Shown one piece after another: positions 10,806-57,860 of a DNA stretch of 64,000 bases (positions are counted from its first letter, which is position 1; every line of letters begins with the position of its first letter). Origin of the DNA: Heterohyrax brucei (taxonomy: Eukaryota > Chordata > Mammalia > Hyracoidea > Procaviidae); the NCBI GenBank assembly GCA_028571685.1, contig CM053166.1:60598111-60662110 (forward strand), in the 5' to 3' direction. The position numbers and the translations under genes are program-made. Under the pieces are notes generated by a model. It had not been told where the DNA came from, searched no databases, and saw only the letters and a program-made list of their open reading frames with translations.

Positions 10806-10848
10806 TGCACTACTACCAGTAATACATTAATGAATATCTGTTTTCTAG

Positions 10849-10875
10849 AGTCGAATCAGACTCGATGGCACTTGG
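10849..10875 (+). mobile_element. Ultra-short RTE/SINE tail insertion (27 bp)
   Basis: Consists only of AGTCGAATCAGACTCGATGG followed by CACTTGG, a mutated form of the palindromic tail core. It is flanked by a CTAG tetranucleotide on both sides (10845-10848, 10876-10879), a possible but weak target duplication. Confidence 0.6.
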
Positions 10876-11067
10876 CTAGCACCCTAACTGGCCACTGGGT
10901 ATTTTCATTACATATGAAAATATCCAATTTGACATCTATCATGACATTTTATTGATCCCTTTATTTCTTCTTTTCTGGGTGATATGCTTATGTCACTTGC
11001 CTATTTTCTATTAGAATGTTATTTTTTCTTATTAATTTCTGAGCATGCTTTTTAATATATTTAGGAT

Positions 11068-11195
11068 GTTGTTGTGTGCTGTTAAGTTGATTATGATGCA
11101 TAGTGATCCTGTAGGACAGAGCGGAACTATCTCATAGGGTTTCCAAGGAGCAGCTGGTAGATTTGAACTGTTGAACTTTTGGTTAGCAGCCATTT
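11068..11195 (-). mobile_element. AfroSINE
   Basis: The reverse copy reads GTTGTTGTGTGCTGTTAAGTTG, then CCTGTAGGACAGAGCGGAAC and TAGGGTTTCCAAGGAGCAG, then TTTTGGTTAGCAGCC. The first bases of the head are missing. Confidence 0.85.
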
Positions 11196-11321
11196 ACAAG
11201 TCATATAAATCATAAGTTAGAAACATATTTCCAGTTTTCTGTTTACCTTTTAGCTGAAGTTAAATTATTATACATTTACCTACCTCCTGGAAAAGCCTAA
11301 CTAGTAGATCAATGTCCACCA

Positions 11322-11525
11322 AGGAGCCCTGGTGGTACAGTGTTCAAGCATTCAGCTGCTAATCAAAAGGTTGATGGTTCAAACCCATCAGCAGCACATG
11401 TGAGAAAAGATCTGGCAATCTGCTCCCATAAAGATTGCAATCTAGGAAATCTTACGCGGTAGCTCTATTTTTGTCACATAGTGTTGCTGTGAGTCAGAAT
11501 CAACTGACAGCACCTGATGATAATA
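11322..11525 (+). mobile_element. AfroSINE, long form
   Basis: Starts GGAGCCCTGGTGGTACAGTG, with head GCTAATCAAAAGGTTGATGG and a B-box-like GGTTCAAACCC. The body is AGATCTGGCAATCTGCTCCC and the tail GTGAGTCAGAATCAACTGAC. Complete but diverged. Confidence 0.88.
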
Positions 11526-11567
11526 CTGAATCAATGCCAAAATGATATTAATGATGATTATAACAAA

Positions 11568-11626
11568 AAACCCAGTGCCATCAAGTCAACTTTTGCTCAT
11601 AGCAACTTTATAGGTCATAGTAGAAC
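11568..11626 (-). mobile_element. 59-bp AfroSINE tail with perfect target duplication
   Basis: Only the 3' end of an AfroSINE is present (reverse: CCCAGTGCCATCAAGTCAAC, then AGGTCATAGTAGAAC). It is flanked by the perfect 13-bp repeat TGATTATAACAAA at 11555-11567 and 11627-11639. It is therefore a genuine severely 5'-truncated insertion, not a decayed full copy. Confidence 0.88.
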
Positions 11627-11639
11627 TGATTATAACAAA

Positions 11640-11870
11640 GATGTTACTTAATATTAACTAATATCTGCCGAGTACATCCTATGCTAGGATGTTTAGATAT
11701 ACTCATTCATTCATACATTTTCTTATTTAACCTTGATTTATTTAGTACCACACAAATCTATGATGTGAGAAGTTCTATTATGCCTACTTCATAGATGAAT
11801 AAATTGAAAATTACAGAGATTAAATATGTAGCTCAAAGCTGGTAAGGGTAGGGCTAAGATTGAAACTGTT
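11640..11870 (-). repeat. MIR SINE
   Basis: Reverse-oriented MIR text: ATATCTGCCGAGTACATCCTATGCTAGG, TTATGCCTACTTCATAGATGAATAAATTG, then AGCTCAAAGCTGGTAAGGG. Decayed, as expected for this mammal-wide family. Confidence 0.75.
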
Positions 11871-11913
11871 AGATTCCAAAGATCTGTTAGATTCCAAAGG
11901 CAGCATTTCCCAA

Positions 11914-12235
11914 GATGTTGTTATTGTTAGATTCTCAAGTTGATTCCAACTCATTGTCACTCTGTGTACAACAGAATGAATCATTGCTTGTTCTTGCATC
12001 ATCCTCATGGTTTGGTGTGCTTGAGCCCGTTGCTGCAGCCATTGTGTCAATCCATCACATTGAGGTTTTTTTGCTGAACATCTACTTTAACCTTCTCCAG
12101 CGACTGGTGCCTCTTTATTTTTTTATTTTTTAGATCCCTCTTGATAACATGGCCAAAGTATCTTGCCATTTCTTGCTTCTAAAGAGCATTATGGATGCAC
12201 TTCTTCCAAAACATATTTGTTCATTTTTTTGGCAT
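11914..12235 (-). mobile_element. RTE LINE 3' fragment
   Basis: Begins GTTGTTATTGTTAGATTCTC and continues with CTCTGTGTACAACAGAATG, GAGCCCGTTGCTGCAGCCATTGTG and the reverse of the RT C-terminal region. A T-rich stretch of about 20 bp (near 12115-12134) is extra relative to other RTE copies in the window. Confidence 0.85.
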
Positions 12236-13188
12236 GCTTTGTGAAATACTATCCCATGAGATATTTACTATACACACACATACATGCAAAAATATCACAC
12301 TCATGGTGTATAGTGAAATGATATGGAAGAGTCTTGAATATCTTATACTACAAACAATCTATAAATATTAGCATATGAAAAACTAAAGGGACATGTTAGG
12401 AAAGAAACTTGTCAAACTTGTTTAATCATTATTTCCTCAAAATTATTTCATCATGGATCTTTTATTTCTCATTACACCTACTAACCTACTGTGGAAATAG
12501 TGCTCTATTTCACACAGTTTAGGAAATATCATATTGTGCTTCTCAACCTGTCAACGAGAGGAGCCTTCAGTGCTGAGCTATCTGGATGCTGTTCACTTAT
12601 TTACATTCAGATGAAAACAAAGAGAATCATCTAATCAAACTAGCTGGTGACTCAAAGTGGGGGAAGAAAAGCTGCTACATGAGATAGCAGAATAAGGATT
12701 TAATAATTTGGAACAATGGACAAAAGCAAATAAGATAAAATCTGACAGGGAAAAATATATACTCCTGTAGCCGGGTTAAAACAAAAATCAATAACATGAG
12801 CACGATTCAGAAAGAAACTTGATTTCACAGTAGTTTTGTGTGAGGAAGCCTGGGAGATTTAATTGATCACAAATCCAATAAAAAGCAAGTGAAATACATC
12901 CAGTTTCTTCATACATCCAGGTAACTTCAGTGTTAAACATGTGTTAATAATGACGTGGAGTTCAGAGTGGCAGAAACTGGTATCCATTCCCCTGGCCTCT
13001 ACGTTGGATAGAAGGTATCTGGAAGATTGCGATATTCCCGCAAAGTATTTCACAGCAGACACTGAATGAATGACAATCCAAAATCCTGTCAGTTGATGTT
13101 GATTTAATCAGTAAGGAATCCAGCAGCTGCCACATTTTGAGCTATGAGAGAAACAATTCATTATGTTTAGTTCTGACTAGATTTGGGT
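12236..13188. other. Mostly unclassified; possible ancient repeat at 12640-13150
   Basis: No gene found. The stretch near 12715-12930 resembles, from memory, an ancient amniote-wide interspersed repeat with text like GATCACAAATCCAATAAAAAGC, but too weakly for a name. The frame at 12859-13062 (minus) shows no known domain. Confidence 0.35.
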
Positions 13189-13189
13189 T

Positions 13190-13350
13190 GGAAACCCTGG
13201 TGGCATAGTGGGCTAAGTGCTATATCTGCTAACCAAAAGGTCAAAAGTTCAAATCTGCCAGGAACTCCTTGGAAACTCTATGGGGCAGTTCTACTCTAAC
13301 TTTTAGGGTTGCTATGAGTTGGACTCGACTCAATGGCAGTGGGTTTATTG
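13190..13350 (+). mobile_element. AfroSINE, short form
   Basis: Reads GGAAACCCTGGTGGCATAGTG, GCTAACCAAAAGGTCAAAAG, TTCCTTGGAAACTCTATGGG-type body, and the tail GAGTTGGACTCGACTCAATGG ending in TGGGTTTA. This form lacks the long-form body (AGTCTGCTTCC). Confidence 0.92.
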
Positions 13351-13357
13351 GGGCTGA

Positions 13358-13572
13358 GTAGTCCCAGGATGATGCTAACGGTTAACATTCTCAGCTGCTA
13401 ACTAAAAAGTTGAAGGTTTGAAACTACCTAGTGGTACCTCAGAAGAAAAACCTGGAAACCCACTTCCAAAAACTATCAGCCCTTGAAAACGTCAAGGAGC
13501 ACAGTTCAACTCTGGCACACAAGGGGTCTACATGAGTTGTAGTTGATTCAAAAGCAGCTGTTTTTTTTAGGA
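13358..13572 (+). mobile_element. AfroSINE, long form
   Basis: The head GCTAACTAAAAAGTTGAAGG is followed by the long body (AAACCTGGAAACCCACTTCC, TCAGCCCTTGAAAACGTCAA) and a decayed tail (GTTGTAGTTGATTCAAAAGC). It lies directly behind the previous SINE in the same orientation. Confidence 0.8.
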
Positions 13573-14523
13573 GGGATGAATGATTTTACTGGATATATTT
13601 TGTTTGCCTCTTACTTGTTCTCCATCCCTTTCCATTGTGCTTTGTATCCTTGGAGGATTCCTGCACTCTTTTGGTCAATGTGAGACACCAGGAGGAGACT
13701 AGAAGGTAGGAGGAGGGTGAACTGGGATATTGCCTTTGTTGATTTGCTATTGGTTTGCTACTGGGACAGAGGGATGCTTTGTTCCTCTACCTGCTGGGTG
13801 GCCCTTTCCTAAAGTTTCAGCTACTCCCTCTGGCTTTAGGTAAACTTTACTTCCCCTTAACCCTCAGGTTTTCTACCTCTGGGGTGCTCCTCAGCTTTCA
13901 TGAAACTACACACATTTTTATAAATCATTCATTTAATCTACTCTCCTCAATTACCCTGTGTGAGCAAGAGACCTGTTTCTTGCTGGGAGCAGGCCTGAAC
14001 TGAAGCCAGAATGACTGATTGTCTTTGAATATTTTGAGGGCTGGATTAAGGGGAAGACAGTGAAATTAAGACAGTTAGAGTGTTAAAATTACAGGAAAAT
14101 TGGATTCATGTACTCAATAATCATTCAACTAATCTTATCAAGACTTTACCATGTGCCAAAGACTGTGGTGAACATTAAACAGCACTCTATAAGCTTGTAA
14201 TAAAGAGATCTAATCTAGGCTAGAGTTCAGGAAGGCCTCCTGGAAAAGGACTTACAAAATAAGAAGGAAATACTGGGAGAAGAGAGGAGAATCTGGGCAG
14301 GAATGTTCCAAGCAGAGGACATTAGAGAAGAGAAAGCTGGAAGTGAGAGAAGGAGGTTCATTCAAGAAAGTGAAAGGTCCCGGGTGCTAGAGCTTCTCTC
14401 TTACAGGTGGGTGAGGAGAGAGTACCAGGGATGAGGCTGAGAGGCGAGAGGCTTAGCCATCAGGGCTGTTGTGAATATGGCTTAATCCAAGGGAACATGG
14501 TAATCCCTGGACAGTTATAAAGC
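13573..14523. other. Unclassified, with an ancient repeat at about 14104-14460
   Basis: 13573-14100 has no recognised content. 14104-14460 reads like an old mammal-wide repeat: AAGACTTTACCATGTGCC, then GGCCTCCTGGAAAAGG, AATGTTCCAAGCAGAGG. I cannot assign the family (L2-related or other). No gene. Confidence 0.4.
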
Positions 14524-15047
14524 ACAGGTTGTTATTGCTTTCCGGTCATTCTAATTTATGGTGACCTTATGTGCAGCAGAACAAAGTTCCTCAGTCCTGC
14601 ACCATCGTCATGATTGTTGGTGCATTAGAGTACATTGCTGCAGCTATTTCAACCTAAGGAGCCCATCTTCCAGCATTGTACTGAGTTACATTTTGTTGTC
14701 ATCCATAGGGTTTTCATTGGCTAATTTCCAGATTGACATAGTGGCTGCAACAATGGACTCAAGTGCAAAAGTAGTTGTGAGGATAGTGCAGGACTAGGTA
14801 GTATTCAATTCTGTTGTACATAGGCCAATATGAGTTGAAACTGACTCAGTGGCATTTAACAACAACAGTTTTCAGAAGTAGATCACCTGGGCTTTCTTCC
14901 TAGTATGTCTGGGTCTAGAAGCTCTGCTGAAACTTGTCCACCATAGTTGACCCTGCTGATATTTGAAATACCCGTGGCATAGCTTCTAGTATCACAGTAG
15001 CATGTACACCACCACACTATGACATACTGACACATGGGTGGTGATAA
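14524..15047 (-). mobile_element. Long RTE-tailed SINE, interrupted by an RTE tail
   Basis: Reverse-oriented composite element. The left end (14524-14650) matches the RTE 3' end. The body follows (TTGTCATCCATAGGGTTTTC), and after the inserted piece at 14731-14863 it resumes with CAGAAGTAGATCACCTGGGC, GATATTTGAAATACCCGTGG and GCATAGCTTCTAG. A sister copy in forward orientation is at 50411-50826, and a related long SINE is at 53318-53650. It is probably an RTE-mobilised non-autonomous element. Confidence 0.75.
14731..14863 (+). mobile_element. RTE 3' tail nested in the long SINE
   Basis: Forward text GATTGACATAGTGGCTGCAAC...ATTTAACAACAACA is the last 130 bp of an RTE. A short TTTCCAGA/TTTTCAGA repeat at its borders looks like an imperfect target duplication. 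It interrupts the body of the reverse-oriented SINE. Confidence 0.78.
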
Positions 15048-16385
15048 ACCAGGGGAAATTATCAATAAGATTTTGTCTTTCCATTGCAGATCAAAGAAAG
15101 GAAGGATGTCCAAGAACCAACGCTGTTCAGGTATCAGTCAAGGTGCCTTGCCAAAGAAAGAGAAGCCAGTTCCTAGAAACATCCAAGCAAAGTGTGAATG
15201 ACAACTCCAGGATATTTTCAAAGGGAAAACTGCATAGAGTGGGAGACTGGCCTAGCAACCGTCTGTTTCATTCTAATTCTGCAAATTCTGAGACTACTCT
15301 GGTGGGGTCCCCATGCTCCACTGTGTGTTGAAGGATGTAGAGGTTTAAAAATTGATTCACTGACATCCAAAATTGTAAGCGAAATGTCATTATTTTTTCT
15401 CCTAGCCCTTCCCCTTGGGCCTAGAAGGCAGGATGAAAGTCCAGACCCTAGCCATTTAGAGTACACAGGGCTTTAGTGTTCATGTTCTTTTATCTTTCTA
15501 GATGACACAATGGCTCTGACAGCATCTGACCTTCAGGCCTCCAAAGAGTTGGTCTCATATCCTAGGATGTTAGACAAATTTACTATTATTTTTTGTTTTT
15601 GTTTATTTTAAAATTAAACCCCTCAAAAACCAGGAAGCACATATCTCAGGTCCTGGGTCAGGGCCAACTTTGGTCACAGTGGAAGCAGGGCAAGGTCTGA
15701 GGGCTATGACGGTGTCATTGAGCACAGAGGTCCTCTTGTTTTGGGGACTGGACTGATCTCTGTGTGACAAGGCAGCTGTGTGAAAATGCCAAGGCTGGCT
15801 TGATAATTATAGAAGCCGTCTCATTACACTTGAATGGGGGCCAAGATATGACCCCACCAGTGAGGAAAGTGTGAGGTAGCAAAACTGGTGCTGTTTAGGG
15901 CAAGTTGGCATTTGCAGCCAGCAGGCATACATGAGGTGTGCCAGAGAGCCCACTTTCCCGTTCCCTGTTGACAAGTGCCCCGAATGCCAGCTTCTGATCT
16001 TCGGACTCAGTCAACGTCTTTGTTCCTAGCCAAGCTGCAGTAAACACAGAAGCTTTGTCAGAGGGCTCAATCTTCTTGTCAATATTCCACTCAACTCCTG
16101 TTCCCATGGACTCATATTTCTGACCTATTACATATGCATGCCTCTTTTTCCCAATCCCTGGAATGGATTCATTTTCCTTAACACTTGAAGTCTAGAAATT
16201 TTTAATCAGACTCAGTGCAATCTCTGCTGTCTGACTACAGTGACACCAGAAGTAGCCTGGTTTTCCAGCTTCTTCAGGTGAGGAAGGATTTATTTTGGAT
16301 GAAGCATCCATTAGCAAAAGATAATTTAAAAATGATCGATCTGCACAGAGTCTTAGCAACTCGAACAAGAGCCCTAGATAGGTCA
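15048..16385. other. Unclassified non-coding DNA
   Basis: No recognised repeat or exon. Overlapping frames on both strands between 15038 and 15476 show no domain and probably occur by chance in a locally GC-richer stretch. Confidence 0.5.
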
Positions 16386-16866
16386 TCCTAACCATGCCAG
16401 GATCACTGGGCCAGCAGCAGGGCACCATCATGGAAAAGAGTCTCAAGAAGGAAGGAAGATACTTCCAGCCAACATGGCACCATAGACAGAAGCACCACAT
16501 AATCTCTCCACAGCAAAGACTCAAAAAACTAAGTAACGCAGACACAAGCATCAACCCTGGAATGGAAGCGTCAAATATAAAGATCTCAGCCAAAAATCAA
16601 AGGGAATAAGAAACTGACAAAAAACAGAGTAAGAAGACAAAGTTTCCAGTCAGCTAACCAAGAACAAATTTGCCATCTTGAATGCCTGTCAGAGATCAGC
16701 AGACAGGAAGTAAGGGAAAGCAGATTTACAGAGGTCTCAGGAGAGGACAAAGCATGTGGCAGCAAGCAAGGCACATTTACCCACTCCCTACCTTCTCCCA
16801 GCCTGCTCTACCTCTGAGACTTCCTGGCTAGCTGTGGTGGCTCAACCAGCCAGAAATTGCAGTGTC

Positions 16867-17373
16867 TGTGTGTCATGGATTGCATTCTGTCCCCTCAAAA
16901 ATGTACATGCTGATTTGACTTGGCAATGAGTCCCAATACGGTGCAATTTCTCCCATGTGTTGTGAATCCTGCTTCTGTGACGTTGAGGAGGGACAATGGA
17001 CGGCAGTTGTGTTGGTGAGGCAGGACTCAAGTTACCAGCTTGTGGGATATAAGGAAGAGAAGTGAGCAGAGTAAGTTGCCACCATAAAGGCAACACCAAG
17101 AGCAGAGCACGTCTTTTGGACCTGAGGTTCCTGTGCCGAGATGCTTTCATTGAATTTGGGCTTAGCCCACTAGCCAAGCCAAGCCAAGTGCCGTCGAGTC
17201 GGATCCAACTCATGGCGACCCTACTAGACTGTCATAATTTATCCCACTGAATGGATTTGTAACTCATGAATAGATGTGTGGCTTAAGGACAGTGACAATA
17301 AATTTTTTTTCATGAAGCCTTCCACTCATGGTATTTTCTGTTAGAGCAGTATCAGGTAACTAAAACATCGTGT
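16867..17373 (+). mobile_element. Solo LTR, MaLR-like afrotherian family
   Basis: Starts TGTGTGTCATGGATTGCATTC and shows GTCCCCTCAAAAATGTACATG, CGTTGAGGAGGGACAATGG, GTTGTGTTGGTGAGGCAGG, CAATAAATTTTTTTTC and an end of TCAGGTAACTAAAACA. Copies of the same family are at 18779-19240, 52155-52638 and 62970-63090; the last follows MaLR-type internal sequence. The polyadenylation signal CAATAAA lies near the 3' end, as in an LTR. No coding sequence. Confidence 0.75.
17174..17222 (-). mobile_element. Ultra-short RTE/SINE tail insertion (49 bp) in an LTR
   Basis: Contains two to three CCAAG units, then GTGCCGTCGAGTCGGATCC and AACTCATGGCGACC, that is, only the SINE/RTE tail in reverse. ACTAG flanks both sides (17169-17173, 17223-17227). 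It interrupts the LTR's continuous sequence. Confidence 0.75.
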
Positions 17374-17487
17374 CTCTTGGATTCCCCACATTACTACTGG
17401 AGATTGGCAGATAGGGAGTATGAAAAACCACATTCAGGAGCTTCCAAGCACCATAGCTGAGCAACTGGCCCCGCTCATCAGACAAAG

Positions 17488-17496
17488 CCAAGCCAA
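17488..17496 (-). mobile_element. Candidate pentamer-only tail insertion (9 bp)
   Basis: CCAAGCCAA sits between two 21-bp near-identical copies (17467-17487 and 17497-17517; two differences) of text beginning GGCCC and ending GACAAAG. The arrangement resembles a target duplication around just the TTGGC tail repeat. Alternatively it is a plain tandem duplication. Confidence 0.45.
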
Positions 17497-18778
17497 GGCC
17501 CTGCTCATCGGACAAAGAGGTAAAAAAATATCCTGATCACAAATGAGCAAACAATGAAGAAGCAGAGCCTGCTTGCTCTGACATGAGTAAATAAAACAAA
17601 AAAGCAGGATGAAACGAACAGATTTACAATAAAAAAAGAAAGAAAGAAAGAAAGAAATTAACTACTGAATGGACCAAAGACAGCAGGCAATATCAAAACA
17701 TATTTAAAAAAAAAAAATCCAGGACAGGAAACTTCTAGTAGGTGTCCATAAGAAAACACCAGATGACTTTCCAGTAGAAGAAAAAACACTAGAATTACCT
17801 GACAGGGAATTCAGATCTCTGATATTCAGAGCTAACCAAGAGTTGAAGCAAAAAAAGAAGACAAAAATAAGGAAAAAAATAGACAAATATATGGGAAAAG
17901 CAGGCAAATTCATGGAGGAATTCATGACAACAATATAGGAACAAAACACAAAAATAAATCACAACTAGAAATCATATAAAAACAACAATTAGAAATCTAA
18001 AAGATAAAAAACAACATTTCAGAAATGGACAATGTCATGAAAGGGTTGAGGAGCAGGTTTGAAATGATGGAACACAAGATCAGAGAAATTGAAGATAAAC
18101 ACTTGAATACATCTTTGAGAAAAAATGAAGAAGTTAGATGAAGAAACCCTGAGAATTATGTGTGATGCAATCAAAAGCAAAATAGGGAGAGAACAGAGAG
18201 GATCACTGAAGAATTACTGCAAGAAAACTTACCTGATACCATGAAAGATGAAACGCTGACCATCCAAGGAGTTCAATGAACCCCAGATTGGATGGAACCT
18301 AAAAGAAAATCAATAAGGCATATCATAATTGCACCCACTAAAGCCAAAGACAGGGAAAACATTCTGAGAGCAGCTCGAGAAAAACAAAAAGTTGCATACA
18401 GAGAAGAAACAGTAAAACTAAGCCTTGATGATTCAGCAGAATCCATGCATACAAGCAGGCAATGGGATCATAATAAATAAAACCTAAAAACAACAAAGCA
18501 AACAAAAAACTGCCAACCAAGAATAATATATCCTGAAAAACTCTCATTCAAATATGATGATGAAATAAGGACATCTCCAGACAAACAGAAATTAAGGGAA
18601 TATTTAAAACCAAGCCAAACCTACAAGAATTATGAAAAAGAGTCCTTTGGTCTCAGAACAATGTCATGCCACAGCCTGAATCTAGGATGCAAAATTGTAT
18701 CAGCCAGATACCAACCTAGGGAATGAACTCTCAAGTATTGTCCAAAGTCAAAAGAGTTGTAAGGGAACCAGAGAGAAT

Positions 18779-19240: not shown

Positions 19241-19273
19241 AAATATGAAACCTTGAAAGAAAAAAAAATTTGC

Positions 19274-19885: not shown

Positions 19886-19901
19886 GGCACTTGGCTTGGC
19901 T
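19886..19901 (+). mobile_element. Candidate tail-only insertion in HAL1
   Basis: GGCACTTGGCTTGGCT appears within HAL1 3' text without the palindromic core. It matches the end of the micro-insertion family exactly, but no target duplication is visible. Confidence 0.4.
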
Positions 19902-21127: not shown

Positions 21128-21162
21128 TGAGTCGGATCCGACTCGACGGCACTTGGCTGGCT
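21128..21162 (+). mobile_element. Ultra-short RTE/SINE tail insertion (35 bp), perfect TSD
   Basis: The insert is the intact palindrome GAGTCGGATCCGACTC (21129-21144) plus GACGGCACTTGGCTGGCT. It is bounded by the perfect 12-bp duplication CAGCAGTGTACA (21116-21127 and 21163-21174). Removing it restores continuous L2 sequence, so this is a true insertion of a 35-bp tail. Confidence 0.9.
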
Positions 21163-32074: not shown

Positions 32075-35000
32075 CTTTTTTTATTGTGATTAACTGAAAG
32101 TTTCCAATCCAAGACAATTTTCCATATAAAACCCAGAGTACACGCCTGTCTGCAATTCTATCTGCTATCCTTGCCTTATGATAGCATACCTTTTTTTCAC
32201 TCTTTACTTTCAGTATCCACTCAACCAACACTTGTCCCCTCCTCTTCACTAAAAAGAAACCAGTAGGAAAGCCTCATATAAATATTAAACCATAAAGTAG
32301 ATGCACCACATGCATCACTCTGGGTCCCAAGTCCAGTCTGTAATTTGTCTCAAGTATTGACTTCAGTACTGGTGTCAGCTCTGGGCTAGCAGCAAGTCTA
32401 GGAACCATGTTCTCATGGGGCCCTGAAGGTTGGACCATCAAGTCTGGTCTTTTAACAAAGTTCTTGATCTGTACACCCCCTTTATTCATGTCACGTCAGA
32501 GACCCTACACTGTGCCCCTATCAGGGGTGTCTTTGGTGGTGGCCAGGCACCATCTAGTTCTTCTCATGCTCATGTAGTCTCTCAATCTCATGGGTCTTTT
32601 TGTCTCCTGGGCTCATTTTTCCTCATGTCTTTGATATTATCAGTTTTCATATGTTCTAGGTAGGTTGGCACCAACTGAAGTTTCTCAGATGTCAACTTTC
32701 TGGCTTTGAAGATTCCAGGCACCACTGACCAGTATGGGGTGATGAAGACTCTCTTAACAAAAGACTAGTTATGCCAAATGACCTCAGTGTCCCCTGATAA
32801 GATGATCCCCAGGCCTGTTTCCCTGCTACTCCATACCTTCAAATGTTGGGTTAAATTTAGAAAACTTTTTAGCTTATGAAGTAGTTCAGTTATGCTGACC
32901 TGCCTTCTACTGCATGCTGTCATTCCCTTCACTTAACCAAATTCCTATTGACTATTTAATCTGTAAGTAGCTCTCTACCTTTCTCTTCACCCTTGTAGCC
33001 ATCAAAGAATATTTTATTTTTTGCATGTGTCTTTTCTTAAGTCTTTATAATAGTGATCTCATACAGTATTTGTCCTTTTGCAGCGTGATGTCTTCCAGTT
33101 GAATACAGATTATGAGATGTTTCCTAAAATCATCATTATTCTTTATTATTGCCTAGTATTACCAGCCAAGTGCCATCGAGTCAGATCTGACTCATTGCCT
33201 AGTATTACATTGTGTATATGTACCATAGTTGGTTTCTCCATTCATCTGTTGATGGGCATTAGGTTGACTCCATCTTTTTGCTATTGTGGATAGTGCTGCA
33301 ATACATATTCAAGAGCATGAATCTGTTTGTGTGATAGCTCTTATTTCTGTAGTATATTTTCCAACCAGTGGGATTTCTGGATCATATGGTTTTTCTTTTT
33401 ATAACTTTTTTAAGAAAGTACCAAATTGCTTTCCAAAGAGGTTATACTATTTTGCATTCCCACCAACAGTGTAGAAGAGTTCCAGTCTCTCCAACTTTTG
33501 TTATTTCATGTTTCTTTGGTTAATGCCAACATTGTTAGAGTGAGATGGTATCTCATTGTAGTTTTGATTTGGATTTCTCTTATGGCTAATGACTGTGAGC
33601 ATTTCCTCATGTGTCTTTTGGCTGACTGGGTGTCCTCTTTGGTGAAGTGTCTGTCCATCTCTTTTGCTCATTGTTTTATTGGGCTATTTGTCTTTTTCTT
33701 GTTGAAATGTTGTAGTTCCTTGTAGATTATGAAAATTAAATGTCAATCAGATGTGTGATTGACAAGTATTTTTTCCCAGTCTGTAGACAGTGTCTTCACT
33801 CTTGATAAAGTCTTTGGATGAGCATAAGTGTTTTGTTTTTTAGTAATTCCTATTTACCTATTTTGTCTTTTGCTGTTCGTGAATTGTTGGTAATACTTTA
33901 TAGTCCGGTTAAACTGTGTACTAGGGTTTCTAGTGTTGTCCCTATTTTTTCTTCCACAATCTTTATCACTTTAAATTTGGTATTTAGATCTTTTATGCAT
34001 TTTGAGTTAGTTTTTGTGTAACATTTGAGATATGGGTCTTGTTTCAGTTATTTTACAGGTGGATATCCAAGTTTGCCAATGCCATTTGTTAAAGAGACTA
34101 TTTTTTCCCCAGTGTACAGCTTTTGGGCCTTTGTCAAATATCAGCTATCCACAAATGGATGGAGTTCTTAATCTATTTTTGTACCAGTACCAGGTTGTTT
34201 TTGACTACTGTGGCAATGAAATAGTTTCTAAGGTCAGGTAGTGTGAGGCTTTCCACTGTGTTCCTCTTCTTCAGAATGCTTTACTTATCCAGGATTTCTT
34301 CCCTTTCCAAATGAAGTTGGTGATTTGTCTCTCTATCTCATTAAAGAATGACTCTGGAATTTGTATTGGGATTGCATTGTATATGTAGATTGCCTTGGGT
34401 AGAATAGGCATTTTCACAACATTAAGCTTACCTATCCATGAGCTAGTTAGGTTACTCTACTCATGGAAGTCTCTTTTGGTTTCCCACAGTAGAGTCTTGT
34501 AATTTTCTCTGTATAGATCTCTTACATCTCTGGTTAGATTTATTCCTAGGTATTTTACCTTCTTGGGGACTGTTGTAAATGCTAATGATTTCCTCTTTGA
34601 TGGTCTCTTCATTGGCATAAAGGAATCCTAATGATTTATTTGTGTTTATCTTGTATCTTCATACTTTGCTGAACTCTTCTGCTAGTTCCAGTGGTCTCTT
34701 TATGGATTCTTCAGGGTTTTCTGTGTATGAGATCATATCATCTGCAAATAGACTTCTACCTCTTCTTTACGAATGTTGATGCCCTTTATTTCTTTATCTT
34801 GTCTGATTGCTCTGATTATAACCTCCAGTACAATGTTGAATAAAAGTATGGACAATGGGCATACTTTCCTGTTTCCAATTCTCAGCGGGAATTCTTTCAG
34901 TTTCTTTCCATTCAGGATGATGTTGGCTGTTGGCTTTGCATAGATACCCCTTATTACACTGAAGAATTTCCCTTGTGTTCCTATTTTGCTGTGAGTTTTT

Positions 35001-35775: not shown

Positions 35776-36645
35776 ATAAATACAAAGCACTTTTGTGCTT
35801 GCTTCTTGAACCAGGACATCATAATAATGAGAACTCGAATTCAAAATTCTGCATCTTTAAGAGCATTGCAAATTGACATCTGTCCCTGACAAAACACTTT
35901 TCTACTTGGGTCACCATGTGTCGGATCCGACTCGACGGCACTTGGCTTGGCACTTGGATTTACAGCATTGGAAAACTCACAGCATCCTGCAGCACAAGGA
36001 GGAAGATACATAATAAAGCCTTTCATCTCAGTGTATGAGTATACCTGTAAATCATTCAACAGACACGCATTAAGTATAAGCCTCAAAGTAGCAGATGCTT
36101 CAAACAAACAATAAAATTTGAGTGTGCCTGCACTATCTGCATCTTTGTTTCTCTGTGTAAACATGAATGTCTTGCTAAAATCTATTCTAGAGCCATCTCA
36201 CTGTTCATCCAACATGTATTTATTTTAGCACTGTGTATTATCGGCTGAACCTGGTACCATGATCCCAGAAAGTCAGATTGCCACTGGCTCCTCAGAATCA
36301 CAGATGCACAAGAATACTTCCAAGATAGTACAGGTTCTATATGCAATATCAAGAAAGCAAAAGACCTTAATCTTGCCTTGAGAAACTTGCTTCCTGGTTG
36401 AAAAAGAAAAAAAAAAAGATACACATATTTAATAACTAGGAAAAAAATGTCATTTATCCATTCTGACAACAAAATTTGCTTAGAACTTACTATGGATGAG
36501 CAGCTTACCATATAAGAGTAGAGAGGATATGTGATCTCATGAAAAAATATAACTAAAGGTCAATTAATACTAGTGTGGGATTTACAATTAATTGACAACA
36601 ACCAGTTACAGATTCTCTTATTCCTTCTCCACTCTCACTGCTTCA
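35776..36645. other. Unclassified DNA with one tail insertion
   Basis: No gene or repeat recognised apart from the micro-insertion at 35910-35951. Two minus-strand frames of 107-109 codons (35841-36164, 36182-36511) show no domain; the first reads through the micro-insertion, which argues against coding. Confidence 0.5.
35910..35951 (+). mobile_element. Ultra-short RTE/SINE tail insertion (42 bp)
   Basis: GTCACCATGTGTCGGATCC then GACTCGACGGCACTTGGC and TTGGC. ACTTGG on both sides (35904-35909, 35952-35957) may be the target duplication, though it overlaps the tail repeat. Confidence 0.75.
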
Positions 36646-48178: not shown

Positions 48179-48303
48179 GCCAAGCTAAGTGCCGTCAAGT
48201 CGGATCTGACTCATGGCGACCCTAGGGGCCAGGGTAGAACTGACCCCCATAGTATTCAAGGAGCGCCTGGTGGATTTGAACTGCCGACCTTGTGGTTAGC
48301 AGT
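48179..48303 (-). mobile_element. AfroSINE with TTGGC-type tail
   Basis: Reverse-oriented: the tail CCAAGCTAAGTGCCGTCAAG and TCGGATCTGACTCATGGCG lies at the left, then the body (CAAGGAGCGCCTGGTGG), B box region (TTTGAACTGCCGACC) and TGTGGTTAGCAG. It is the one longer SINE here with the same tail as the micro-insertions. A 30-bp direct repeat with one mismatch flanks the area (48141-48170, 48334-48363), longer than other target duplications here. Confidence 0.82.
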
Positions 48304-48721
48304 GGTGGGACTTAATATTCACGTATTCATATATATTCATATAATGGAATATGACTCAGCAATGAAAAGTAATGGACTGCTGATGAATACAATAACATGG
48401 ATGCATTTCAAAGTAATTATGCTAAGTGAAAGAAAACAACAAAACAGTACCTTGTGTATAATTCCACTTATGCAAAATTCTAGAAAATACAAACTAATTC
48501 ATAGAGACAGAAAGCAGATCATTGGTGGCTTGGGAAAAGGGTGAGGAGGGAATTGCAAAGTGGTACAATGAAACTTTAGGATATGTTCACTATCATGGTT
48601 TAGGGATGGTTTTGTGAGTATACACATGTCAAGACTTAACAAATTATACATCTTAAAAGCACGCAGTTTATTGTATACCAATTATTCCTTAATAAAGCTG
48701 TTAAAAGTAAAGTGAAAAAAA

Positions 48722-48946: not shown

Positions 48947-48947
<1 letters not shown>

Positions 48948-48990: not shown

Positions 48991-48991
<1 letters not shown>

Positions 48992-48992
<1 letters not shown>

Positions 48993-50400: not shown

Positions 50401-50410
50401 TTTTTTTTTT

Positions 50411-50826
50411 GCTACAATGGCTTTGGTGCTAGTACGATGCTGGGAGCTTTGCCACCAGTATTTCAAATAACAGCAGAGTCATCCACAGTAAATAGCTTTC
50501 AGCAGAGCTTCCAGATTAAGATAGACTAAGAAGACAGGCATGGCAATCTACTTCTGGAAATTAGTTAGTGTAAATCTTACATGTCACAACAGAACATTGT
50601 CTAATACTCTTACTTTGGAAACATCATCAGAAGGGATCAATTGCTTAAGTAAGATCATTTTTGGTGAGGTAGAGGGCTACCAAGGACAAGAGACATCCTC
50701 AGTAAAATAGAATGGCACAGTAGCCCAATAATGGACTCAAAAACTGGTGATAGTGAGGATGATGCAAGATCAGGCAATGTTTTGTTTTGTTGTACATAAG
50801 GGTCACCATCAGTCAAAATCAATTAT
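50411..50826 (+). mobile_element. RTE-derived composite SINE, forward copy
   Basis: The body starts GCTACAATGGCTTTGGTGC and shows GCCACCAGTATTTCAAATAAC and GAGCTTCCAGATTAAG, then GGCAATCTACTTCTGG. From about 50630 it becomes the RTE 3' end (ATCATCAGAAGGGATC, GATGATGCAAGATCAGGC, TTGTTGTACATAAGGG). Same architecture, reversed, as 14524-15047. It has no frame of its own. Confidence 0.75.
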
Positions 50827-50828
50827 CT

Positions 50829-50893
50829 ATCGATCTGTCTGTCTGTCTACCATCTGGCCTGCCTGCCTGCCTGCCCATCTGTCTGTCTATCAC
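50829..50893. repeat. CTGT/CCTG tetranucleotide repeat
   Basis: Imperfect run of TCTA, TCTG, CCTG and CTGT units directly after the RTE tail; probably grew from the tail. Confidence 0.9.
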
Positions 50894-52020
50894 AGTTTTA
50901 GTTCCATTAAGCCTAATCTGGTATAAATCAGCAATCCTCCACTTGCCAGAATATGACATATATTAACTCTTTCTCCTTTTCTTATTTCTCTATCTCTCAA
51001 TCTTGATTTTGATTATTTTATAGATGCTCTATGAGGATAGCTGGGAGTACTATTGGGTTCATCATTTATTCAGTACGTGTAACACAGCTATTTAAAAATT
51101 TATTGCTGACATGTATATCATCACTGAGGTTACAATAAAACACACTAAGTATAAGTTCCATTTTTCAAAAGCTTGTCCCGTAAGTCAAACCAGAGAAGGT
51201 AGTATTCTGGTGTCTAACTGCAGAATCAGGAAAAATGTCTTTGTGTTGTCCAATCAAACATTTGAGGCCAGGCAAATTTCTTGAGAAAGCTTAATTTTTT
51301 TTATTATCAATTTATGAGTTTAGGGATGAAATGTTTTAGGAGCCTCGTTACTAAGCCAAAGGAATCAATATTTTTCTGTTAACAGGCAAGCTGTCACATT
51401 TAAAAATCAGCTGAAAACCTTCATTCAGCAGCTCAGGGAAAATGCCTGCTCCAGAGGCTCAGCCAAGCAAATGTTTTGTTGTGTTTTGGTCTCCTAAGCT
51501 GAGCCAGTAAAATCCTCACCAGCTTCTGTTCTAGTGAGTGTCTGTACCACTGTTCAACAGCTCATTAGGAGATTCTGATTCATTTTTCTAAGTAACATGT
51601 TGTCATGTTGTTGATTCCAGAACAAAACTTGTCTTCTTTTTTTGTTTGGGTAAGGGGAGTTTGAGGCCTTATGTTGATTGCATTTATCATGTCCCTTTTT
51701 CTCCTCATGGAGTTAGAAATATAATAGATCATAAAGCTTCCTAGCAAGTCTGAGGTCATAACTTTGGAGGTGAGGGAGGAAAAGAAAGGTTCTGAGAGCA
51801 AATTCTTTTCTAAAGGGCTTCCCATCTGTAGAGCTGTTTACCTATCCATCTTATTTTTTGTTCTTCACTCTTCTGAACCCTAAAATAAGTGTTCTAAAAT
51901 TATTAAATGGAGATGGGAATGAACGATGTTAAGATGTACTGCTGCATGCCAAATGTGTCTTTGCCTTACCTTCATGCTATACTCAGACCTACTCTCAATT
52001 TAAACAAACTGAATAGCCGT
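50894..52020. other. Unclassified non-coding DNA
   Basis: No gene, RNA or repeat recognised. Confidence 0.5.
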
Positions 52021-52150
52021 TTTTACAACCAATACTAATTCAACTAGCCCTAGGCATCAGGCATTGTGCTAGGTACTAAGGATTAAAAACCATTAAGGTG
52101 CAACCCCCTCCCAGAAAGGGAAATAATAAATAACTATAAAGTATTTTGCG
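52021..52150 (+). repeat. Ancient mammal-wide repeat fragment
   Basis: GCATCAGGCATTGTGCTAGG, then TACTAAGGATTAAAAACC and AATAATAAATAACTATAAAG, the same kind of text as 14104-14460. Family not assigned. Confidence 0.45.
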
Positions 52151-52154
52151 TGTC

Positions 52155-52638
52155 TCTGGATTTGAATTGTGTTTCCCCCCAAAATGTGTAGCAATCTGTC
52201 TAGCCTTGATTCCCGATATTGTGTGATGTTCCTCCCTGTTGTAAAACCTGCCTCAATTATGTTAATGAGGGAGAATGGGCTGCAGTTGTGTCGGTGGGGC
52301 AGGACTCATTGTGTATGATGGGATTGTGCCTTGAGGCAATCTTTTGTGATACAAAGGAAAGGGAAACAAGCAGAGAGTTGGGGATCTCATATCACCAAGA
52401 AAGCAGTGCCAGAAGCAGAGTGCATCCTTTGGAAAGGACCTGGGGGTCCCTGCAACCTCAGAAACTCCCAGACCAGGGGAAGATTGAAAAGAAGTACCTT
52501 TGTCTGGAGTCAGCAGAGAACACTTTCTCCCGGAGCTGACACCCTGAATTTGGACTTTTGTGTATGTGATGAAGTAATATTTCTCTTTTTAAAACAATTC
52601 ACTTTGTTATGGTAGCACTAGATGAATAAGACAACATG
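52155..52638 (+). mobile_element. Solo LTR, MaLR-like afrotherian family
   Basis: Most complete copy of the family: TTGAATTGTGTTTCCCCCC, AATGTGTAGCAATCTGTCTAGCC, TATTGTGTGATGTTCC, ATGTTAATGAGGGAGAATGG, TTGTGTCGGTGGGGCAGG, AGAGAGTTGGGGATCTCATATC, and the end ATGGTAGCACTAGATGAATAAG. The overlapping forward frames at 52219-52615 are chance frames in an LTR. Confidence 0.78.
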
Positions 52639-52779
52639 TGAACTAACAAAATATGATGTGTATCTAATCTTTTTAGAAGCAATTTATTGCAGAAATACTT
52701 TCTGTATGTGCTTGTGTGTGTGTGTGTTAGCTTTCTGTTACAGTGCAGTACTGATAAGGAAAAGTTTATCAGGCAATGG

Positions 52780-52865
52780 TCATCAAAGCTCATTATGAGA
52801 CACTGCCATCAGAACAACACGGAAATATCTGATAAAAATGCAGTCTTGGGCCCTACTCTAAAGAT
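52780..52865 (+). repeat. MER5-like hAT remnant, left part
   Basis: GACACTGCCATCAGAACAAC, AAAAATGCAGTCTTGGGCCC then CTACTCTAAAGATCC; the counterpart after the SINE reads TTAGAATTTCTGGGCAATGG. This is the order of MER5-type non-autonomous hAT elements. Confidence 0.6.
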
Positions 52866-53072
52866 CCCTGGCTAGTGCAAATGGTTTTCTCTTGACTACT
52901 AACCTAAAGGTTGGTGATTCAAACTCACCCAGCAATACTGGAGAAGAAAAGCTGGAGAACCTGCTTCCATAAAGATTACAGTCAAGAAAATGCTATGGAG
53001 GAGTAGTATTCTATAACACACAGTCACCACGAGTCAGGATTGACTACATAGCAACAAGTTTGGTTTGGGTTT
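52866..53072 (+). mobile_element. AfroSINE, long form, in a hAT remnant
   Basis: CCTGGCTAGTGCAAATGG, GGTTGGTGATTCAAACTC, GAACCTGCTTCCATAAAG, tail CACGAGTCAGGATTGACTAC and TGGTTTGGGTTTG. Confidence 0.87.
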
Positions 53073-53170
53073 GACCTCACTCTAGTTCAATTAGAATTTC
53101 TGGGCAATGGAGATTTGTGAATCTGAACATGCAGCTCAGTTTCTAGTTAGTTCTGTGCACATCAATTTTA
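53073..53170 (+). repeat. MER5-like hAT remnant, right part
   Basis: Continuation of 52780-52865 after the SINE; GGGCAATGGAGATTTGTGAATC and a weak terminal region. Decayed. Confidence 0.55.
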
Positions 53171-53317
53171 AAAAAGCACCACTACATAAATAAGTTCCAA
53201 GAATTACTTCTGGGAAGTAAGGGCAAAAAAAGTACACCTAGTCTCCAACAACTGACAGAATAGGTACACAAGCTAAATTGTGCCAGTAGCAACTCAGTGG
53301 AACTACCTCCAAAATGT
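53171..53317. other. Unclassified spacer
   Basis: Nothing recognised. Confidence 0.5.
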
Positions 53318-53650
53318 TGTTAGCTGCCATTGAGTCAGCCTCCTTGTCACAATGACCCTATGCATAACAGAATACAGTGCTGCCTAGCCCCATTCCATTC
53401 ACATGATCAACTTTGGATCACACCACTGTGTTCTATGGGGTTTTCATCAGCTGATTTTCAGAAGTAGATCTCTAGGCCTTTCTTCTGTTCCATCTCAGTC
53501 AAGAAGCTTCCTGGAAACCTGCTCACCATCACAGCAACATGCAAGCATCTGCTAACAGAGTGGGGGCTGCACCTGAGATACATTGGCTCATCATTGAACC
53601 CACGTCTCCCATGAGAAGCTGAGAACCAAACCGCTAAACAACCATTGCCT
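53318..53650 (-). mobile_element. Long tRNA-headed SINE with RTE tail
   Basis: Reverse-oriented, about 330 bp. Left end TTGTTAGCTGCCATTGAGTC is the RTE-type tail; the middle TTTTCATCAGCTGATTTTCAG and TAGATCTCTAGGCC is the body shared with 14524-15047. On the minus strand the right end reads GTTTAGCGGTTTGGTTCTC and TGGGTTCAATGATGAGCC, which looks like tRNA A and B boxes. It shows how a tRNA promoter, a body and the RTE tail are joined. Confidence 0.75.
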
Positions 53651-54493
53651 CACCTCTGGAGTAGTACTGCTATACTTGGGAGTAGAACCAGAAATGTTTG
53701 CCAGGAAAATGTCTAATAAGCAGACAACATCAGTGGGGGAAAAAAAAGCTCAAGATTGAGGAATGACCAGTTTGACAGTTTGTTCTCACACTGGTTCTTC
53801 TGCCCATTGGTTTTGTGATATCAGAAGGATCACTTCTCTGATAGCGACCCCTACTGTTTTAATACAAGGCAAAATCAAGTGATACAGTTTACACCTCAAA
53901 GGTAAATCTATCTCTTCTCTGCCTACTTTTTTAGATCAGTTTCAGGTGCCCTCAGGGATGTGGCTTGAGAAGAATGGAATATTTAAATAAATGCAAAGTA
54001 TTCAGCTTATTCTCTCGTTACCGTTTCTCATTCTGAAAGTACCTGAAAACGGAATAATGTCTACCCCATCTGGCTGAAAGTGAGAGATCCAGTTGACTTT
54101 CCTTTATGGCAATTCTTTTTGCCAAAGACTAAGTAATAACTCCCCCTAGTGTACCATCTCTTCAGTTCCTAAGCAGCCATTGGGATGTGGAGGAGGCCAC
54201 TGTAGTGTGATTCCTGGATTAAAGGCCATGTGACAGGCTCAATGTCTAGGCCTCTTTAAACATTTAATCCCTCTTTTAATTGAGGAAATCTGTGGGCTCA
54301 GATTTAGTGGTATTATTATGTAGCGTTTATAATGGGCACTGGAAAACACTAACCTGTTGCCACGCAACAAGATTTCCTTTAAGACTTTTTTTTCCCTGAA
54401 CTGGACTTTCTTCTAAGGAAACGTCATAGCCCGGGTACTGTTTGCTTGTCACTAAAAACAAATGAGCACTATTTTGGTAATGAAAGCCTGCAT
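53651..54493. other. Unclassified non-coding DNA
   Basis: No recognised repeat or gene. Confidence 0.5.
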
Positions 54494-54965
54494 AACAGAT
54501 AACTCCCCAAATTTAGTAGTTTAAAACAACAGACATTTCTTATTTTACAGTTTCTGAGTACCAGAAATCCGGGAGCAGCTAGGCTGGGTCCTCTCACTCA
54601 GGGTCTCTCACAAGGCTGCAACTAAGATTTCAGTGCAGTTACAGTTTTATCTAGAGAGGGATTAGCTTCCAAGCACACTTGTTAGCAGAATTCAGTTCTT
54701 TGTGGGCTGTTGGACCGAAGAGGACCTCCTCGCCTTCTCTCAGGTTATGAATTCAATTCCTTGCCACGTGGACCTCTGTATGGGGCAGCTCACAACATGG
54801 CAGTTGGTTTCCCTCAGAGTAAGGACTCAGGAAGAGGACTCTTTGTAACCTAATCTCAGAAGTGACATCCGTGACTTCTTGCCATATTCCATTAATGGGC
54901 TACAAGGTACAATTCACTAGGTCCAGAAAACACAGAAGGGGAGAAGACTATGCAAATATCAAGAA
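54494..54965 (+). repeat. Old mammal-wide repeat
   Basis: AACAGATAACTCCCCAAATTTAG, TAGTTTAAAACAACAGACATTTC, CTGGGTCCTCTCACTCAGGG, GGCAGCTCACAACATGG, TCTCAGAAGTGACATCCG. Related copies at 24470-25510 and 60905-61475. Family name not recalled. Confidence 0.6.
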
Positions 54966-55012
54966 GTAGACATCATCTGGGGTCAGCTAAGTGTTGCCTA
55001 CCACAGGCACTT

Positions 55013-55225
55013 AGAAGTTCTTGAGTGGTGCAAATGGTTGAGTGCTTGACTACTAGCCAAAAAGTTGTTGATTTGAACCCCCTCACAGATGCCTCAGAAA
55101 GCAGCCTGGAGATCTGCTTCTGAAAGGTCACAGCCTTGAAAGCCCTACGGAGTGCAGTTCTACTCTGTACCCATAGGCCCTCCATGAATCAGAATTGACT
55201 TGATGGCAGCTGACAACAACAACTA
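55013..55225 (+). mobile_element. AfroSINE, long form
   Basis: TTCTTGAGTGGTGCAAATGG, CTAGCCAAAAAGTTGTTG, GGAGATCTGCTTCTGAAAGG, tail ATGAATCAGAATTGACTTGATGG and ACAACAACAAC, close to an RTE tail. Confidence 0.87.
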
Positions 55226-55811
55226 TCATTTAGCTCCTTGAATTTAGAAGCCTGATATAAACATTTCTTTCAAAGTCAGCTAGTGGTTTGTCAATGAGTA
55301 CTACCTGTAGCATGCCTTCTATATGTAAAGGTAACTGCTCTGTCGGGTGTTTAAGTACTACAAAATGTGCTTCAGTCTTTCCCAAAGCATTGGGCCTATC
55401 TCCTCCTATTATAATACACTAACTTGGTATTTCTTTCTTTTTTTTATTTAACTCTATAGACACAGCTGTAGAGCACCCTGACCCACATGGGGTCACCATG
55501 AGTTAAGTTAACTCAACAGAGACTGGATTTTTATATGTAAATGTGATGTGAGAGTGGCTTCTGACTTCCTCTAGCTTTGCAAGGTGAGAGAGAATCAAGA
55601 TCAACAAACCAAGGCTGACTCCCATGAGGTGGAGGTAAGACGTATCTCCTCTATCTGCCATCTTTACCAGTTCTGATGCCAACTGGCCCTCCCACAGCAC
55701 TCTCTACTTCTGTGGTACATTAGATAGTTCATTGCAATGGCCACACAGAATGCACTGATTGTACTCACAGTTATGGGGTCTATTAGGTTACTAGGGTAAT
55801 ATGAGGACAGA
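55226..55811. other. Unclassified; possible SINE tail near 55480-55525
   Basis: GGGGTCACCATGAGTTAAGTTAACTCAACAG near 55489-55519 matches the AfroSINE tail pattern but has no head. Nothing else recognised. Confidence 0.4.
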
Positions 55812-55883
55812 GCCTGAACAGGGACCTGAACCCTAGACCCTTGGATGAAAAGCCTGATGCTCTACCGACTGAGATACTCAGGC
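55812..55883 (-). tRNA. tRNA-Lys(TTT)-like gene, probably a pseudogene
   Basis: Seventy-two nucleotides fold as a tRNA on the minus strand. The acceptor stem GCCTGAG/TTCAGGC pairs fully (one G.T). The D arm is TCTCAGTCGGTAGAGC, the anticodon loop CTTTTCA gives TTT, and the T arm is TAGGGTTCAGGTCCCTG. Overall it matches cytosolic tRNA-Lys(TTT). Signs of decay: two mismatches in the anticodon stem (TCAGG against TCCAA), the A of the loop after TTT changed to C, one D-stem mismatch, and altered A box (TATCTCAGTCGG) and B box (GGTTCAGGTCC). No encoded CCA or A-tail is seen, so it looks like a decayed gene copy rather than a processed one. An AfroSINE starts 10 bp away. Confidence 0.82.
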
Positions 55884-55892
55884 TTCCAAGAG

Positions 55893-56070
55893 AAATAACT
55901 AGGAAATCCTGGTTGCAGAGTGGCTAAAATGTATGTCTGCTAACCAAAAAGTCAGCAGTTTGAATTCATCAGGCATTCCTTGGAAACCCTATGGGTCAGT
56001 TCTACTCTGTCCCACAGGGGTTGCTATGAGTAGGAATCAATGTGACAGCAATGGGTTTATTTTGTTTTTG
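55893..56070 (+). mobile_element. AfroSINE, short form
   Basis: GGAAATCCTGGTTGCAGAGTGG, GCTAACCAAAAAGTCAGCAG, TTCCTTGGAAACCCTATGGG, tail GAGTAGGAATCAATGTGAC and TGGGTTTATTTTG. Its T-rich end was the target for the next L1. Confidence 0.92.
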
Positions 56071-57087
56071 TTTTTTTTATTATGACTGAGTGAAAATGTA
56101 CATTCCCATATAAATTTACATGCCTACCTATATGCAGCTTCCACTGCTCTCCCTGCCCAGTGACAGCACACTATTCCTCTCTGCTCCATACATGTCTCAT
56201 CCTCCCAACAGTCTCCTTTCCCCTCCTCTCCACCAACTCCCCTTCCTCCAGCCAGAGGTCAGCAGGATGATATCCTATAGATGCACAGAACCATAAAGTG
56301 CATCCAGTATATGGTCACTCTGCATCACTAAGTCCAATACACTTGTGTCCAAAGAGTGGACATTCATTATGATTTATGGGCAAGGGCAGCATCAGTGCCA
56401 GGGGCCGTGCTCCCAGGGGAACCCTGAAGCCGCTGGACCATCAATTGTGGTTTTTTAGTGGAGATCTCAGGGTGCACCCCTTTTTGTTCTTGTGTTGCCA
56501 GTGGAACTCAACTTAGTGAGCTCCACTGCGGCTATCACTGGTGGTGGCTGGGCACCATCTGGTTCTTCCAGTCCCAAGTCTTGATTCATACCACTTACCC
56601 AAATTATCACAACGTGAAGCAGAACAACTTAATAAACCCATCACAAAGGAAGAGATTGAAAATGTCATCAAAACACTGCCAAGCAAACAAAGCCTGGGCC
56701 CAGATGGCTTCACTGCAGAATTCTACCAAGGTTTTAGAGAAGAGTTATCTCCAATACTAGTGAGACTATTTCACAGTATACAAGGGGACAGAATACTCCC
56801 AGACTCATTCTATGAAGCCAGCACAACCCTGATACCAAAGCCAGGGAAAGACCCAACAAAAAAAAGAGAACTACAGACTGGTATCACTCATGAATGTAGA
56901 TGCAAAAATCTTCAACAAAATTCTTGCCAATACAACAACAGATCAAAAAAATAATCCATCATGACCAAGTGGGATTCATACCATGGATGCAAGGCTGGTT
57001 CAACATCAGAAAAACAATGTGATTAACCACATAAATATCACAAAAGATAAGAATCACCTGATTTTGTCCACCGATGCAGAAAAGGCA
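56071..57087 (-). mobile_element. Rearranged L1: 3' UTR reverse, RT segment forward
   Basis: The left arm (56071 to about 56588) is L1 3' UTR on the minus strand. The right arm (about 56592-57087) is ORF2 RT in forward orientation, with [19 protein letters not shown] and [18 protein letters not shown] readable in 56541-56954. About 2.5 kb of L1 between the two source regions is missing. TTTGTTTTTG flanks the whole (56061-56070, 57088-57097). This fits twin priming with a large internal deletion. Confidence 0.83.
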
Positions 57088-57097
57088 TTTGTTTTTG

Positions 57098-57577
57098 TTT
57101 TTGATTAACAGGTTACAGTTCAGGATCAGGAATACTCAGGAACGTGGTTCTTCTATTAGGACAGCCTCTTCCCAGCTGTGCTCACAGCTATGGCTCTCCC
57201 TGGTCCTCCGCCTCTGCCATCTCTGTGCCGTCTCCTGCAAGTCTGTCCTGCTGAACTTTCCTGCCTTGATGGTGGTGGGCTCTTCTCTTTCACACCTCTA
57301 GGATGGCTCACCTCAAGCACCTCAGTAAGACGGCAAAACTGACGAATCCCCTTGGTGGGACACAGTTACCCTATCACACAGTCCAGCCCAAATATTTGGG
57401 GGGAAGTTATAAAACCATGGGTAGAAAGGCCTTAGAAAAGTGATCCTTCAAGCTTCATTATAGTTACATCATGTAAATATTACACGTATTTGAGGATATG
57501 GACTTACTCTAAGCAAGCTTCATTTGAGGAAGTCTACATGAGTACATAAGTATTATTTATAATTTATAGAGGTAACA
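57098..57577. other. Unclassified non-coding DNA
   Basis: A pyrimidine-rich part (57150-57300) and CCCTATCACACAGTCCAGCCC near 57370. I do not recognise a family or exon. Confidence 0.45.
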
Positions 57578-57860
57578 TAGCACAGAGCTTGTGAATATTG
57601 ACTCTGGAATCAGGTAGTTTTAAATTCAAGTTCTGACTCAGCCATTTAGCAGCTGTGTAACTTTTGAGCAAGTAAGCTCATTCCTCTAAGTCTCAATTTG
57701 TTTATCTACATAATGAGGGTTAGAAATAGTTGCTGCATCACACAGTTACTGTAAGGATTAAGTAATGCATTTGAAAAGCAGAGTGCTTAGCCTTGTACTC
57801 AGTGTCAGCCAAGTGCCGTTGAGTTGGATCCGACTTGTAGGTACTTAATAAATGCCTCAT
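57578..57860 (+). repeat. MIR SINE, nearly complete
   Basis: TAACATAGCACAGAGCTTGTG, ATTGACTCTGGAATCAGG, AGCCATTTAGCAGCTGTGTAAC, TTATCTACATAATGAGGG, TTACTGTAAGGATTAAGTAATGC, then TACTTAATAAATGCC follow the MIR order. It is split by the tail insertion at 57798-57833. Confidence 0.88.
57798..57833 (-). mobile_element. Ultra-short RTE/SINE tail insertion (36 bp) in MIR
   Basis: GTCAGCCAAGTGCCGTTGAG and TTGGATCCGA, reverse orientation, between two copies of CTTGTA (57792-57797, 57834-57839). It interrupts the MIR just before its TACTTAATAAATG end. Confidence 0.78.

Follow-up and report, generated by a model that had tools for sequence, protein, structure and literature searches.

Tail-only copies of an AfroSINE-related short interspersed element in Heterohyrax brucei

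Results

We analyzed a 64,000-nucleotide stretch of the Heterohyrax brucei genome (assembly GCA_028571685.1, contig CM053166.1, positions 60,598,111 to 60,662,110; here referred to as the window) that carries short insertions sharing a 16-bp core and a TTGGC-type end. The original prediction had described at least six such tail-only sites, 27 to 49 bp long, as a dispersed micro-family. All six sites are present and belong to one family: the core was found in 6 of 6 together with a GACGGCAC-type stretch and an end of the TTGGC type, with three insertions on the plus strand and three on the minus strand, as had been proposed for both strands. The count of at least six held for these sites but overlooked a long copy of the same short interspersed element (SINE) and two weak candidates for shorter copies. 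The copies and their flanking direct repeats are listed below; the hairpin referred to is the predicted fold of the 3' part of the element.

10849 to 10875, plus strand: tail-only copy with a decayed core and its 5' end at the hairpin edge; 4-bp flanking repeat CTAG, seen by eye only
17174 to 17222, minus strand: tail-only copy starting AGGGTCGCCATGAG, with three TTGGC units; 5-bp repeat, seen by eye
21128 to 21162, plus strand: tail-only copy of 35 bp with an intact core; exact 12-bp duplication CAGCAGTGTACA, from the scripted search
33163 to 33193, minus strand: tail-only copy of 31 bp; exact 15-bp duplication GTAATACTAGGCAAT, from the scripted search
35910 to 35951, plus strand: tail-only copy starting GTCACCATG; 6-bp repeat ACTTGG, seen by eye
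57798 to 57833, minus strand: tail-only copy starting TCGGATCC, its tail deviating from the TTGGC pattern; 6-bp repeat TACAAG
48179 to 48306, minus strand: long copy of the same SINE, reaching into the transfer RNA (tRNA)-like head
19886 to 19900, plus strand: possible shorter copy, an exact match to the 15-mer GGCACTTGGCTTGGC with the core absent or decayed and no clear duplication
5612 to 5626, minus strand: possible shorter copy, the same 15-mer with one mismatch and no core

At 10849, 17174, and 35910 the flanking duplications are no proof of insertion, since they amount to only 4 to 6 bp found by eye and the scripted search ranked other, unconvincing repeats on top. Among re-paired controls, 203/2566 also reached the 6-bp length seen at 57798 to 57833. 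An exact 20-bp direct repeat brackets the long copy, and extra bases separate it from the SINE 5' end, leaving an untidy 5' junction.

Allowing up to three mismatches, the core matched the window 10 times, against 0 expected from 100 shuffles. Seven of these matches (10848, 17196, 21129, 33178, 35918, 48197, and 57821) belong by their tails to the TTGGC-tailed family, which ends in a CACTTGGC-type sequence; the other three (13316, 60524, and 63590) have AfroSINE-like or RTE-like tails instead. We use the names AfroSINE and RTE for what we take these window repeats to be. When the long copy was aligned with three AfroSINE-like copies of the window, 84/113, 73/105, and 78/109 positions were identical, with scores of 41 to 55 compared to at most 12 for shuffles. 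Longer copies elsewhere extend upstream into CAGTTCTACCCTGGCCCCTAGGGTCGCCAT and CGCTCCTTGAATACTCTGGGGG, with a body that can be aligned with the AfroSINE-like window repeats. Judged by these alignments, the copies derive from a SINE that is related to AfroSINE and ends in a TTGGC-type tail, so that the supposed micro-family is not independent but is the 3' end of this SINE. The TTGGC-tailed copies do not carry the GGGTTTGG-type 3' end of the standard AfroSINE subfamilies; RTE-type copies share the same hairpin but end in CTAACAAC. Both the long window copy and the longest examined copy with an exact 26-mer (L071) continue into a tRNA-like head, where stretches resembling RNA polymerase III boxes were seen by eye only; an Rfam search of L071 returned no match. 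The sole Rfam match of the window is a tRNA at 55811 to 55883 on the minus strand (scoring 32.1 bits, where the gathering score is 29), possibly a SINE head. Separately, near 55186 in the window and at two random loci (L007, near 834; L023, near 9497 on the minus strand), AfroSINE-like bodies terminate in sequence of the CTAACAG or CTGACAAC type rather than in GGGTTTGG, which suggests either tail exchange between the SINE and an RTE long interspersed element (LINE) or a further subfamily.

We then turned to the whole assembly (3.488 Gb in 62 contigs). The exact 16-mer core occurs at 13,082 places, compared to 1 for its reversed control; a 26-mer running from TCGGATCC to TTGGC occurs at 4,064 + 4,131 places, and a 23-mer comprising the 3' half of the hairpin and the tail at 5,900 + 5,982, each compared to 0 for its control. 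With these controls, and with no core matches in shuffles, a chance origin of the core matches was rejected. Copies were examined at 100 listed 26-mer places and at 31 of the 32 places listed with the core but no exact 26-mer (C1:3728943 was left out); apart from the window, all come from the single contig C1. Removal of two segmental duplicates (L121 and L122) from these 131 gave a set of 129 copies. The core census covers 49 of the first 50 listed exact-core places, 18 with the 26-mer and 31 without, and includes L121 and L122 among the 31 as duplicates of two of the 18; these two share a larger repeated stretch with L003 and L004.

All 49 of the census places belong to the TTGGC-tailed family, and the core was thereby rejected as a mark of AfroSINE and RTE copies at large. 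The tail matched GACGGCACTTGGC at 11 or more of 13 bases in 31/31 core places without an exact 26-mer; copies with the 26-mer match by choice of the pattern. Non-CpG differences among copies numbered 55/770 (7.1%), an upper estimate since some misaligned copies are included. Tail-only copies made up 36 of the 49 (12/18 and 24/31), and none of the 49 reached 100 nt or more upstream. Among 100 copies, insert lengths peaked at 30 to 44 bp, with 79 inserts of at most 50 bp and 3 longer than 100 bp. Thus, in the sample, the exact core does not lie mostly within full SINEs, nor is a length peak near 30 to 50 bp missing, and the reading of the sites as tail-only insertions is supported for this part of the genome-wide matches. 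The predicted density of one copy per roughly 10 kb did not extend to the genome as an average: at the same threshold, seven core-bearing copies occur in the 64-kb window and none in 20 random 10-kb loci (200 kb). In those loci we found one exact site of the 15-mer alone (L023), and a looser 14-mer pattern gave 3 matches against 1 for its reverse. The window is a rich spot for TTGGC-tailed copies, and for that reason they were noticed here.

The copies keep their 3' end while 5' sequence is missing, and several marks of retrotransposition accompany them. Exact flanking duplications of at least 8 bp bound 28 of the 129 copies, compared to 14 of 2566 re-paired controls; for duplications of at least 10 bp, the counts are 22 of 129 and 1 of 2566. 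Target-site duplication is a feature of RTE-mobilized retroposons. Inserts of 30 to 48 bp account for 21 of the 28, and the duplications, where present, adjoin the truncated 5' end itself. A T precedes the duplication (position -1) in 21/28 cases (p 9e-7) and stands at position -12 in 19/28 (p 3e-5), with A or T at positions -11 to -13 in 24 to 26 of the 28. PMC13295347 describes the Bov-B target as three T about ten bases ahead of a T|A cleavage site (the Tn-TA signature) and credits Gilbert et al. with a similar target pattern for an elephant RTE LINE. The target sites found here are close to this RTE/Bov-B signature and carry much of it. Microhomology of at least two bases is present at the 5' junction in 11/28 cases, against 5.6% expected (p 1.6e-7). 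At the other end, the tail is often reiterated: a second TGGC follows the first CACTTGGC within 5 bases in 77/100 copies compared to 12/400 in the control, and the spacer before the repeated TGGC varies (T in 43, none in 11, ACT in 6, TT in 4, and others).

The 5' ends form a continuous spread, ranging from inside the hairpin up to the SINE head. The 5' end lies at most 19 nt upstream of TCGG in 105 of the 129 exact-core copies; a single copy (1/129) reaches 100 nt or more. Only 30 of 100 listed 23-mer places contain the exact 26-mer; we examined 40 of the other 70, and in 23 of these the 5' end lies inside the hairpin. The predicted sites thus have the lengths stated, but 27 bp marks a detection limit rather than a lower limit of the insertions. 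The hairpin-edge rule placed L167 and L175 past the hairpin, although the duplication at L167 places its 5' end inside, and within the 40 places L170/L171 and L176/L177/L184/L186 share flanks and are not independent; at the latter four, all on C1, the copy has the same flanks and is thus carried within a larger repeat. Exact duplications of at least 10 bp bound 2 of the 23 hairpin-internal copies, compared to 0 of 876 controls. With many 5' ends inside the hairpin, a sharp stop at its 5' edge was rejected, and the spread from the hairpin interior to about 20 nt beyond argues against both a single stop site and a single protected fragment.

This spread bears on an explanation in which the templates themselves were short, being 3' fragments of cleaved or degraded SINE RNA that retained the hairpin and tail and were fully copied by the same machinery. 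The predicted fold makes the 3' part one extended hairpin within which most copies end, and with such fragments the duplications and target signature would be no different. Against this, the presence of 23/40 starts inside the hairpin among the sampled 23-mer places, which lack the exact core, means that no intact protected fragment is favored, and the hairpin folds little better than shuffles (z of -1.1 for the TTGGC end and -1.6 for the AfroSINE end), which leaves RNA folding weak as a cause. We regard short templates as unlikely, while giving them serious weight.

Families for comparison were drawn from the window together with the 20 random loci (264 kb). Among AfroSINE-tailed copies, which have a sister hairpin, 21/30 reach at least 92 nt upstream and 2/30 stop at 29 nt or less; 16/23 RTE-tailed matches reach at least 97 nt. 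The seven short RTE-tailed matches include one seemingly tail-only copy (L022), several with an AfroSINE-like body, and one in which the 57798 site is read as a palindrome from the opposite strand. These numbers can be set against the idea that ordinary 5' truncation affects all RTE-mobilized elements here and is merely conspicuous in a subfamily that is young and easily recognized. According to PMC3747384, 5' truncation is general among LINEs, and L022 and the two short AfroSINE copies show that some short copies do exist in the other families. Both of those families are nevertheless mostly long, the three AfroSINE copies of lowest divergence (L005, L006, and L023) are full length, and a Fisher test comparing short copies in the TTGGC-tailed family (84/100) with AfroSINE copies (2/30) gave a p value of 6e-15 with cut-offs of 19 nt and 29 nt, respectively. 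We consider ordinary truncation quite improbable as the explanation.

Elsewhere in the window, a diverged tandem array lies at 2410 to 3082 and comprises 2.9 copies of an approximately 230-bp unit (73% matches); related copies extend from roughly 2143 to 3181.

Discussion

We think it probable that the short sites are products of target-primed retrotransposition of an AfroSINE-related SINE by the machinery of an RTE-clade LINE, with reverse transcription aborted early. Priming at the RNA 3' end would succeed, often with the last few bases copied repeatedly; elongation would then mostly stop within about 25 to 50 nt, and the short complementary DNA (cDNA) would be joined to the target with the aid of microhomology. 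Early drop-off of the reverse transcriptase, rather than short RNA templates, would be the cause, and the helper may be an RTE1_LA-type LINE. In PMC3747384, the Afro SINEs AFRO_LA and PSINE1 are tabulated with RTE1 as their partner LINE.

Several observations weigh against early-aborted retrotransposition. Short RNA templates would yield a nearly identical picture, and just 12/28 duplications start with A (p 0.06). The AfroSINE and RTE controls are more diverged than the TTGGC-tailed copies, and the AfroSINE relatives are older, so the comparison by which truncation would be peculiar to this subfamily is not age-matched. We found no LINE with a TTGGC end, and no genome-wide search for one was made. 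Finally, 79 of the 129 copies lack an exact duplication of at least 6 bp, a count that favors an origin without retrotransposition, whether by later deletion in longer copies, by filler DNA from break repair, or by chance. Such an origin seems to us hardly credible, considering that the duplications abut the truncated 5' end and that the shuffled and reversed controls speak against chance.

If transcription is aborted early, the copies of 25 to 50 bp may be the long end of a near-exponential distribution. Insertions below 20 bp would then be far more numerous and would now be taken for small insertions of random origin. The RTE reverse transcriptase would then work in an abortive mode, with a loss, by our own estimate, of very roughly 7 to 9% of complexes per nucleotide. 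We put this forward tentatively and with some doubt, because the shortest candidates, recognized by the 15-mer only, have no duplication. Were it true, retrotransposition would be an unrecognized source of small insertions and deletions in this lineage. In any case, a SINE subfamily with typical copies of 30 to 45 bp records reverse transcriptase release, joining of the cDNA end, and tail reiteration over thousands of places. This class of insertion is likely to be missed by length-based repeat annotation, and its duplication-flanked sites could serve as presence/absence markers.

Tail-only AfroSINE copies go unmentioned in the titles and abstract openings of the literature searched, which did not include the elephant study of Gilbert et al. 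2008 (Gene), and any priority would be provisional. The closest relative is AfroSINE itself: it can be aligned over the body and some of the head, the 3' hairpin is of the same type, and the target sites are RTE-like. In the AfroSINE copies, the hairpin centers on GGAATC, the end is GGGTTTGG, and most copies are long, whereas in the copies described here the hairpin centers on GGATCC, the end is of the TTGGC type, and most copies are 25 to 50 bp; the AfroSINE side of this comparison is made up of the copies from the window and the random loci. Tailless retropseudogenes of therian mammals, as presented in PMC5322556, are likewise duplication-flanked products of retroposition that are short and truncated. 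They have no 3' tail and are attributed to LINE1, whereas TTGGC-tailed copies keep the 3' end alone, which makes the two classes mirror images. With 5'-truncated LINEs and SINEs, including Bov-B/RTE as portrayed in PMC13295347, the TTGGC-tailed copies share target-primed insertion, a retained 3' end and lost 5' end, duplications, and a Tn-TA-like site. The difference is one of degree, in that 105/129 exact-core copies stop no more than 19 nt upstream of TCGG. What we describe is a known process, 5' truncation, carried to an unusual extreme within one SINE subfamily and new in its degree.

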